From Chitinophagaceae bacterium (GTDB taxonomy: Bacteria > Bacteroidota > Bacteroidia > Chitinophagales > Chitinophagaceae), in NCBI GenBank assembly GCA_023251255.1, contig JAHEZD010000040.1:1-49098 (forward strand): 49,098 bases of DNA, in the 5' to 3' direction. The position numbers and the translations under genes are program-made. How positions within the stretch are numbered: position 1 is the stretch's first letter; the number at the start of each line of letters is the position of its first letter. The notes under the pieces were generated by a model. It was not told the DNA's origin. It saw only the letters and a list, made by a program, of their open reading frames with translations, and ran no database searches. Shown here piece by piece: positions 136-48,590 of this stretch.

Positions 136-185
136 TGTGACCAAAATTTTGTGAACATTTAAAAGTTCACAAAATTTTGGTCACA
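136..185. promoter_or_regulatory. Four-half-site palindromic operator-like array upstream of the HTH gene
   Basis: Four 7-bp half-sites are laid out as TGTGACC-7-TGTGAAC-8-GTTCACA-7-GGTCACA, exactly 50 bp. The outer pair and the inner pair are each perfect reverse complements, and the symmetry extends to 134-187. It lies 21 bp upstream of the minus-strand HTH start codon at 114. There is no T-tract, so a terminator is unlikely. The same 7-7-7-8-7-7-7 geometry occurs twice at 48484-48590 upstream of the second HTH gene. Binding by the adjacent HTH protein is an inference. Confidence 0.75.
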
Positions 186-12044: not shown

Positions 12045-12200
12045 TCTTTCAATGCTAGCAATTATGTTTGCGCAGCAAACAAAACCATTGGAGTTTTTAC
12101 CACCAAGGCACGAAGGCACTAAGTTTAAAAAAAACTTCGTTTTTTTCCTTCGTGTCTTTGTGCCTTGGTGGTAAGCATAAAAAATCATTTGCTTGCAAAT
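12045..12200. repeat. Dispersed hairpin element, accac(c)aag family, copy 2, in the gap between ispD and the PKD gene
   Basis: 12099-12172 is an almost perfect palindrome running from ACCACCAAGGCACGAAGG to GTGTCTTTGTGCCTTGGTGGT around AAAAACTTCGTTTTTT. Flanks carry TTTGCGCAGCAAA and CATTTGCTTGCAAATG palindromes. Downstream at about 12250-12270 is a GC hairpin (GCCTGCCCG...CGGGC). The rest of the 458-bp gap up to 12429 holds no recognisable gene and must contain the promoters of the two divergent genes. Confidence 0.7.
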
Positions 12201-16149: not shown

Positions 16150-16355
16150 GTAAATCAATGTTTGCTTCGCAAACAAACACATTGACCCTGCCTGCCGGCA
16201 AAGACAGGGATGACACCCGATAGCCATCGGGTTAACCACAAAGGCTCAAAGACACAAAGGAAAAAAAACGAAGTTTTTTTTCCTTTGTGTCTTCGTGCCC
16301 CCGCCTGAACGGACGGGCAGGTTTGCGGTAAAATAAAAAGCATTTGTTTGCAAAT
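16150..16355. repeat. Dispersed hairpin element, accac(c)aag family, copy 4
   Basis: TGTTTGCTTCGCAAACAAAC and a CCTGCCTGCCGGCAAAG block come first. The hairpin AACCACAAAGGCTCAAAG ... CTTTGTGTCTTCGTGCC folds around AAAACGAAGTTTT (16234-16300). Its right end is split by a CCGCCTGAACGGACGGGCAG block before TTTGCGGT. The flank ends with CATTTGTTTGCAAATG. This copy shows the insertion of a second repeat type into the first. Confidence 0.6.
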
Positions 16356-47890: not shown

Positions 47891-48433
47891 CTACGAGTTT
47901 CCGTTATCGCTTTCCAGCATCTCCTGTAGTTCTTTGATTTCCATTTGCAGCAGCCGGATAGTAGACTGTGTTTGCCGCTGTGCCGATGGGCCGCAGTCCA
48001 CAATTTTTTCGGTGGCCTCATATTCTCGCATTTTGAACCAGTTGATGTCCTTTTTGGCAACTGCATCGTCAGTGGTGATGGTAGGTAGCATGGTGTTAAC
48101 CAAATGAATTGCACTGCAACACCGGGCATAGGTTATTTGCTGGCTTTCGAATTGTTTCTGGGTCCTGGTCAACTTGTTTTGGCATTTAACCAATCGTCTG
48201 TAAGCCAAGGCTGCCAAAGAGTCTTTGGCTTTGGCTTCTGCCTCTATAATTTGGTCCGGGATAGTAGTAGGCTCGGCAAATAGGGGAACTTCCAGTCTTA
48301 TTTGTTTTAAGCCAGCTTCTGGCGGAAGGCTCCTAATCAATAGTTCCCACCGGGCAACAGTAGTGCGGGTAGTATCTAGGTATAATGCTAATTCCTCCTG
48401 TGTTATGTCGAAAACCTCGCGTAAGGATTGCAT
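47891..48433 (-). CDS. Helix-turn-helix regulator with coiled-coil C-terminus
   Basis: 180 residues from ATG 48433. The frame is open to 48607, but that stretch is the palindromic array and encodes an odd Phe/Cys-rich peptide, so the internal start MQSLREVFDITQEEL is chosen. The N-terminal helix-turn-helix (about 5-30, TQEELALYLDTTRTTVARWE) is close to that of the partial gene at 1-114. The rest is largely helical, with a C-terminal coiled coil (STIRLLQMEIKELQEMLESD) that would dimerise it. Two tandem copies of a four-half-site operator lie 50 bp upstream, implying autoregulation. It separates two pectin genes, but nothing else links it to sugar control. Confidence 0.78.
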   Translation of the reverse strand: MQSLREVFDITQEELALYLDTTRTTVARWELLIRSLPPEAGLKQIRLEVPLFAEPTTIPDQIIEAEAKAKDSLAALAYRRLVKCQNKLTRTQKQFESQQITYARCCSAIHLVNTMLPTITTDDAVAKKDINWFKMREYEATEKIVDCGPSAQRQTQSTIRLLQMEIKELQEMLESDNGNS

Positions 48434-48483: not shown

Positions 48484-48590
48484 TGGAACAAAATCCTTGG
48501 AACATTTTAACATGTTCCAAACAAAATGTTCCAAGTAGTATGGAACAAAAAAGGTGGAACATTGTGGAATGTTCCAAGAAAATTGTTCCA
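48484..48590. promoter_or_regulatory. Eight-half-site operator lattice upstream of the HTH gene
   Basis: Heptamers TGGAACA at 48484, 48498, 48541, 48555 and TGTTCCA at 48513, 48527, 48570, 48584. Each group of four follows the same 7-7-7-8-7-7-7 plan over 50 bp (48484-48533 and 48541-48590), and the two groups are joined by a 7-bp linker, so half-sites keep a 14/15-bp step across 107 bp. This is the same geometry as 136-185, with a different half-site sequence. Confidence 0.8.

Follow-up and report, generated by a model that had tools for sequence, protein, structure and literature searches.

Four-half-site arrays upstream of a patchy family of XRE-type regulators in Bacteroidia: likely self-operators whose half-sites covary with the recognition helix

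Among the nearest solved relatives of the HTH part of the family described here are the controller (C) proteins of R-M systems, C.BclI, C.AhdI and C.Esp1396I. Like the regulators in our proposal, C proteins control their own genes through several half-sites, although their usual half-site order differs from the right-right-left-left order found here. The C-protein chains matched are 66-79 aa long in most cases and have no long hairpin, whereas P0001, a full-length family member encoded in the DNA stretch analyzed here, has 180 aa and carries a hairpin in addition to its HTH. The nearest worked-out parallel among the systems compared is C.Csp231I, whose two sites for dimers lie 15 bp from each other, depend on the length of the spacer and not on its sequence, and are considered to communicate through a DNA loop (PMC4321490). 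In the LacI family, own-promoter sites were used to infer a residue-to-base code dominated by two residues and two bases (Camas et al. 2010, PMC2978694). The logic followed here, reading own-promoter sites within one family, is the same, but it concerns another protein family, with four half-sites, several spacings and an expansion inside single genomes. Immunity repressors of cluster A mycobacteriophages work with stoperators, one repressor having many dispersed sites (PMC9283540, PMC6550527), and the title of the former refers to an asymmetric site. In contrast, the present family is chromosomal, with many paralogues per genome and palindromic four-site arrays. Among the papers listed by literature searches limited to open-licence papers, no description of this HTH family was seen.

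The stretch of DNA analyzed (the window) is one complete contig of 49,098 bases (G000:C113) of a Chitinophagaceae draft genome of 6.1 Mb in 188 contigs. Near its left end lies an operator-like array of four half-sites, 21 bp from the ATG (positions 112-114) of a minus-strand HTH gene that is cut by the contig end after 38 readable residues (Table 1). The letters and spacing of the array and its distance from the gene, as given in the preliminary description, were exact. We add that its arms form a perfect 21-bp inverted repeat, spacers included. The centre-to-centre steps between half-sites are 14, 15 and 14 bp, and the outer pair is 43 bp apart. The TGTGAMC-half-site pattern with up to 3 mismatches occurs once in the window and was absent from 100 dinucleotide shuffles. 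A strict 7-8-7 scan of the entire window at a score of at least 30 returned only this array and two adjoining arrays near the other end, upstream of the gene for P0001. The latter have the same spacing but a different half-site, TGGAACA, as had been claimed; they too were absent from shuffles, and their arms are only 74-76% complementary.

Table 1. Coordinates of the arrays and genes discussed (positions in the window unless a locus is named; the partner genes are examples among others)
Feature	Coordinates	Strand	Basis or remark
Four-half-site operator-like array, TGTGACC-7-TGTGAAC-8-GTTCACA-7-GGTCACA	136..185	.	sequence, shuffles; spacers 7, 8, 7
Half-site TGTGACC	136-142		
Half-site TGTGAAC	150-156		
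Half-site GTTCACA	165-171		
Half-site GGTCACA	179-185		
5' part of HTH family gene, cut by contig end	1..114	-	ATG at 114; recognition helix GIARSSITM
P0001, full-length family member, 180 aa: HTH (residues 2-52) and long helical hairpin (60-178)	47891..48433	-	profile, model
First TGGAACA four-half-site array	48484..48533	.	50 bp upstream of P0001
Second TGGAACA array	48541..48590	.	57 bp from first
Partner gene	L127:577-987		
Partner gene	L128:2334-2744		
Partner gene	L129:2552-2974		
Partner gene	L117:709-1131		

The fragment encoded at the window's left end matched the family profile weakly (E 2.4e-5). The first 220 bp of the window have a 96% near-copy at the start of another contig (C152:1-220), and contigs C178 and C56 each end in a 3' fragment of the family, the two being 98% alike across 141 bp. 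Judging by these matches, the window gene probably exists in two or more near-identical copies, at which the assembly broke. An HTH pseudogene related to it, on contig C136, has kept its array intact. Other repeats were seen in the window. A dispersed repeat (TTCGACAAGCTCAGTATGACA-like) at positions 418-499 has more than 20 matches in the genome, and two long inverted repeats of a different type, at 12097-12174 and 16243-16299, are 83% and 93% complementary.

The family consists of XRE-type regulators, mostly of 160-190 aa, in which a lambda-repressor-like HTH at the N-terminus is followed by a long antiparallel hairpin of helices at the C-terminus. An AlphaFold model of P0001 (mean pLDDT 94.2, pTM 0.63) places helices at residues 2-8, 12-19, 23-30 and 38-52, which conform to the lambda-repressor-like fold, and the third of these is likely the recognition helix. 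They are followed by a 59-residue helix folded back on two more, so that the model has the shape of an HTH on a long coiled stalk. No enzyme domain was found in the model or the protein. Foldseek aligned the HTH part of P0001 to several C proteins, 434 Cro and P22 c2 at about 1-3 A, all at displayed E values above 0.1, and the comparison of the model with the PDB gave nothing at E 0.001 or better. The family profile matched the solved structure of C.BclI at E 1.3e-6, relatives found by sequence matching mainly in the HTH, and gave a weak partial match to PDB chain 8bny, 'Immunity repressor protein' (E 3.7e-4). Representatives compared with Pfam, NCBIfam, PHROGs and PADLOC had only weak HTH matches. 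None passed the curated cut-offs of Pfam (P0001 and the window fragment) or NCBIfam (four members): against HTH_3 (PF01381), P0001 scored 22.5 bits and the window fragment 19.5, both under the gathering score of 23.

A search of the genome with P0001 yielded 20 further paralogues, 19-28% identical to it. A profile of these 21 gave 40 matches, comprising 24 full-length members, one weaker match (C155, E 3.7e-4) and 15 pieces that were either shorter or weak. The distribution of the family is patchy, with an expansion in a few genomes. With the first profile, at E 1e-8, members were found in 6 of 396 genomes of the order; with a broader one, at E 1e-10, in 20 of 394 genomes of the Chitinophagaceae and 10 of 395 of the class, each count including the present genome. 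Its 24 copies are the highest number seen, the figures for other genomes being lower bounds because at most 8 candidates a genome were scored. A scan of named genomes gave 43 loci, one of which, L138 from Chitinophagaceae bacterium UBA1930, is identical in its upstream letters to L081 of G002 and represents the same locus. At the other 42, two of them from a Ferruginibacter MAG, the family profile matched over the HTH or a short stretch only. We examined 91 members, the 24 copies of this genome and 67 from elsewhere, so the HTH family presumed in the preliminary description does exist. Among the later loci, identical proteins were counted once, and the 92 entries correspond to 91 members because L199 repeats L133.

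We then searched the 300 bp preceding each member for sets of four 7-mers in the order right-right-left-left with spacings of 6-8, 6-9 and 6-8. In the first set, 25 of 37 members scored at least 30, against 3 of 1480 shuffled sequences, and 23 of 37 scored at least 32, against 1 of 1480; shuffled controls cover this set only. The score of 32 was attained by 30 of the 55 entries of the second set. Altogether 53 of the 91 members have a four-half-site array at that threshold, and 38 have none reaching it. The expectation that members of the family carry such arrays is thus borne out for the majority only. Those without include L191, which has no upstream sequence, L198, which has two bases of it, and four members inside operons. 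At five members below the threshold (L016, L022, L135, L136 and L137), half-sites in other spacings were seen by eye. As a control on real DNA, a stretch of up to 400 bp preceding ribBA, a gene unrelated to the family, scored 27 or less in 27 of 29 genomes. The exceptions, G659 and G643, scored 35 and 39 and seem to have genuine arrays.

Across Bacteroidia, comparable layouts built from other half-sites stand in front of related genes. The half-sites seen at family genes include TGGAACA, TGTGACA, TGTAACA, TGAAACA, TGTGGTA, TGTGTCA, TGCGACA, TGTCCTC, TGTGACC, TGTAGCA, TGTTGCA, TGTAATA, TGTGCGA and TGTACCA. The idea of a conserved operator architecture with diverging half-sites holds in that the layout recurs and the half-sites differ, but the spacing itself varies, with 7-8-7, 8-8-8, 7-7-7, 7-9-7 and 8-9-8 all represented. 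TGTAGCA half-sites go with Ser27-Leu28 recognition helices at L016, L081, L137 and L192, in four genomes of the Chitinophagaceae.

The preliminary description had suggested correlating half-site bases with recognition-helix residues, and the two do covary. Among 28 members, similarity of the recognition helix correlated with similarity of the half-site (r=0.57, permutation p=2e-4), the value being 0.53 with C-terminal similarity removed. Of 855 residue-base pairs scanned in 24 less redundant members, five near-copies having been dropped, two stood far out, pairing residue 28 to base 4 (z 6.5) and residue 23 to base 6 (z 6.2), the next reaching 3.3. Half-sites for these two analyses were entered by hand, mostly from scan output, and include some read by eye, such as those of L016, L018, L022, L030, L031, L034 and L137. 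Automatic consensus half-sites were used for the validation, the counts over all 53 arrays and the tree counts; in the latter two the orientation of L015 was set by hand, base 6 being C either way.

The validation was performed on members fetched after the rule had been seen, with 29 of 30 arrays kept after removal of one repeat. C6 was present in 18 of 18 arrays of members with Arg23 and in 0 of 11 with another residue there (Fisher p=3e-8). G4 accompanied Met28 in 18 of 23, leaving 5 exceptions, against 0 of 6 (p=0.001), and A5 accompanied Ala27 in 4 of 5 against 7 of 24 (p 0.054). Over all 53 arrays, the corresponding figures were 33/33 versus 0/20 for Arg23 and C6, 31/38 versus 3/15 for Met28 and G4, and 14/15 versus 13/38 for Ala27 and A5. 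Gly24 is perhaps linked to T4 (4/5 versus 0/48), an association spotted only after the validation data had been seen. At lower thresholds, exceptions to the Arg23 rule appeared in 1 of 36 Arg23 members at score 30 and 4 of 39 at score 26. The array TGTCAAG in front of the L018 operon, about 1.2 kb from that HTH gene, disagrees with the Arg23 of L018. The window array is outside the set of 53 because its gene is cut; its protein has Arg23, and C6 occurs in the outer half-sites only, the inner TGTGAAC having A6 against the rule. Reading of the G opposite C6 by an Arg is ordinary chemistry, and lambda-type repressors usually make their contacts through recognition-helix positions 1, 2, 5 and 6.

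The arrays at family genes, their geometry and the coupling of residues to bases are read directly from the sequences. The explanation in which we place high confidence is that each array is the operator of the adjacent HTH protein, which would bind four half-sites in its own promoter and most likely represses its own gene. As part of that explanation, and with the same confidence, half-site letters would be set mainly by recognition-helix residues, Arg23 specifying C6 (G on the other strand), Met28 mostly G4, and Ala27 A5. Since half-site letters track the recognition helix, each protein of the family very probably binds its own operator.

Arrays are also found away from family genes. A 7-8-7 pattern requiring TGT in each of its four half-sites has 47 matches in this genome and none for the reversed-pattern control. 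Ten of them lie at family genes, intact or contig-cut, or at an operon with such a gene, a further 5 are at remnants or likely remnants (C136, C63, C150, C60 and C159), 1 is a probable chance match (C107) and 31 are elsewhere, 4 of the latter at C8 near a very weak family fragment (E 0.024). The claim that arrays go with HTH genes is therefore only partly upheld. In six other genomes the same pattern gave 25 (G560), 3 (G002), 3 (G643), 2 (G583), 1 (G607) and 0 (G854) matches, with a single control match, in G002; one match each in G002 and G607 looks like chance. In G560, TGTGTCA arrays were seen at L254, L255, L256 and L257, in tandem with a 54-bp period at three of these four loci. The array at L257:5319 precedes a further family gene, with Arg23 and outside the 91, which is followed by a gene for 136 aa.

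These dispersed copies could indicate that we are dealing with palindromic repeats of a mobile or dispersed kind, similar to REP or MITE sequences, with the HTH genes as passengers or as the element's DNA-binding protein and any operator role secondary. We regard this as unlikely, even though several observations agree with it. Dispersed palindromic copies are what REP/MITE repeats of the RAYT type would give. Flanking genes, taken from mechanical ORFs at the 29 dispersed loci with genes on both sides, show no clear promoter bias (9 divergent, 16 tandem and 4 convergent; L105 was left out because it has no left neighbour). We accordingly rejected the reading of the arrays as promoter-only sites and do not claim that all of them are regulatory. 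Modules of gene plus array are duplicated, L032 and L035 being 93% alike over 687 bp and L021 and L026 80% over 671 bp, and the stretch upstream of L032 recurs with an array at L116 and L100, both of which are gene-less. A pseudogene and likely truncated copies keep their arrays intact; the HTH pseudogene at L007:2296-2510 has an in-frame stop and a perfect array, followed by a ParA-like gene. The 21-bp arms are perfect at 8 of 8 loci of the TGTGAMC type and 5 of 6 of the TGTAAMC type.

Other features argue against mobile repeats. No transposase or nuclease domain was found in the HTH protein, as an autonomous element would have. At the aligned borders of the two module pairs no clear target-site duplication was visible by eye, and a mobile element with target duplication was accordingly rejected. 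If the proteins did not bind, it would be difficult to account for the coupling of residues to bases in the arrays that accompany their genes. Moreover, half-sites can be kept while spacers drift. The TGGAACA double array, with its 57-bp period, was found again at C115 and C162 with its half-sites kept and its spacers changed; over the three loci, pairwise identity is 166/168 in half-sites and 85/132 in spacers, and the shared stretch stops within about 10 bp of the double array. The dispersed arrays may be regulon sites, relics or spreading repeats. Judging by their sequences, some look like targets of the same proteins, forming small regulons, and others would be remnants of duplicated and decayed gene-plus-array modules.

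In two cases, arrays with different half-sites are found next to the same gene in different genomes. Arrays at ribBA occur in this genome and in two genomes of another genus (L252:1998-2104, L263, L284 and L288). The C115 copy of the TGGAACA double array lies here between an outer-membrane receptor gene and ribBA; the orthologous gap of G643, from another genus, has a TGTAATA-type array, and G659, of the same genus as G643, also has one of that type before ribBA. None was found in the 13 other family-bearing genomes with a ribBA match (that of G475 is only 45% identical) or in 14 genomes without a family match; G422 has no ribBA match. An AhpD-like gene followed by an array is found with TGTAACC here and with a TGTGCGA type in the congener G002 (L095:1173-1222 and L265:2004-2053).

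The residue-base coupling might instead reflect shared ancestry and not recognition, which we consider very improbable. Related members do share helix and half-site. When only the C-terminal part was used for a tree (52 rows), the Arg23 label had to change 6 times, with strong branches forcing 3 or more of these changes. Base 6 follows Arg23 in all 3 independent pairs on strong branches, for which the sign test (p 0.25) is without power because only these 3 independent switches rest on such branches. However, of some 171 variable positions scanned, the two with outstanding couplings both belong to the predicted recognition helix (residues 23-30), similarity of the C-terminal part has no explanatory value left when that of the helix is accounted for (0.06, p=0.23), and the Arg23-C6 rule was kept in newly fetched genera and families. 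That the palindrome acts as RNA or single-stranded DNA, as a hairpin terminator or attenuator and not a protein site, is hardly credible: the arms of the window array are perfect and spacer changes at L012 and L013 are matched on both arms, but many arrays match mainly in their half-sites (12-18 of 21 arm positions at many loci, and the TGGAACA arms as given above), and half-sites follow recognition-helix residues.

Under the operator reading, the divergence of specificity had been proposed to avoid cross-talk between paralogues. Among pairs less than 45% identical, the same half-site is shared by 5 of 150 within genomes and 46 of 1207 between genomes. As sharing is alike in both, we rejected cross-talk avoidance as the cause of divergence. 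Half-site and spacing together are shared by 0 of 150 such pairs within genomes, where about 1.6 would be expected, and by 13 of 1207 between genomes. Recent duplicates do have both in common, in 3 of 7 close pairs within a genome. It is possible that spacing provides a second specificity coordinate.

A gene for a coiled-coil-like protein of 136-140 aa lies within 500 bp downstream of 23 of the 91 members, in five families of the class; 71 of the 91 had more than 450 bp of downstream sequence. P0001 has no such partner downstream. Type II antitoxins have a toxin gene next to them, and the partner was considered in this light as well; of its representatives, two had no Pfam match and one had no PHROGs or PADLOC match. 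At L127, L128, L129 and L117 in this genome a membrane protein gene, the HTH gene and the partner gene form a three-gene operon in this order. Inspection by eye showed, upstream of three of these four operons, direct repeats roughly 21 bp long that differ from one operon to another, and palindromic arrays at the fourth (C16). The partner protein may modulate the HTH protein.

For the arrays at family genes, we infer binding, dimer arrangement and repression as follows. Each member would bind four half-sites of its own promoter, which are in the order right, right, left, left and together span about 49-53 bp. It would probably do so as a pair of dimers that the hairpins hold together. HTH dimers on stalks could bridge half-sites and pack cooperatively over the promoter. 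Such binding would most likely repress the protein's own gene, leading to self-limiting expression.

More tentatively, and with less than even confidence, the family might be regarded as a large set of naturally diversified repressor-operator pairs with a compact and largely decodable code (residues 23, 24, 27 and 28 to bases 6, 4, 5 and 4), spacing as a second coordinate, and a turnover of specificity during which some targets are retained. It has long been asked whether simple rules link amino acids to bases in HTH proteins, and in what way paralogous repressors diverge from one another. The family offers many cases, most with the presumed operator beside the gene, which makes both questions accessible to gel-shift or SELEX assays with synthetic arrays, and it could supply separate repressor-operator pairs for laboratory use.
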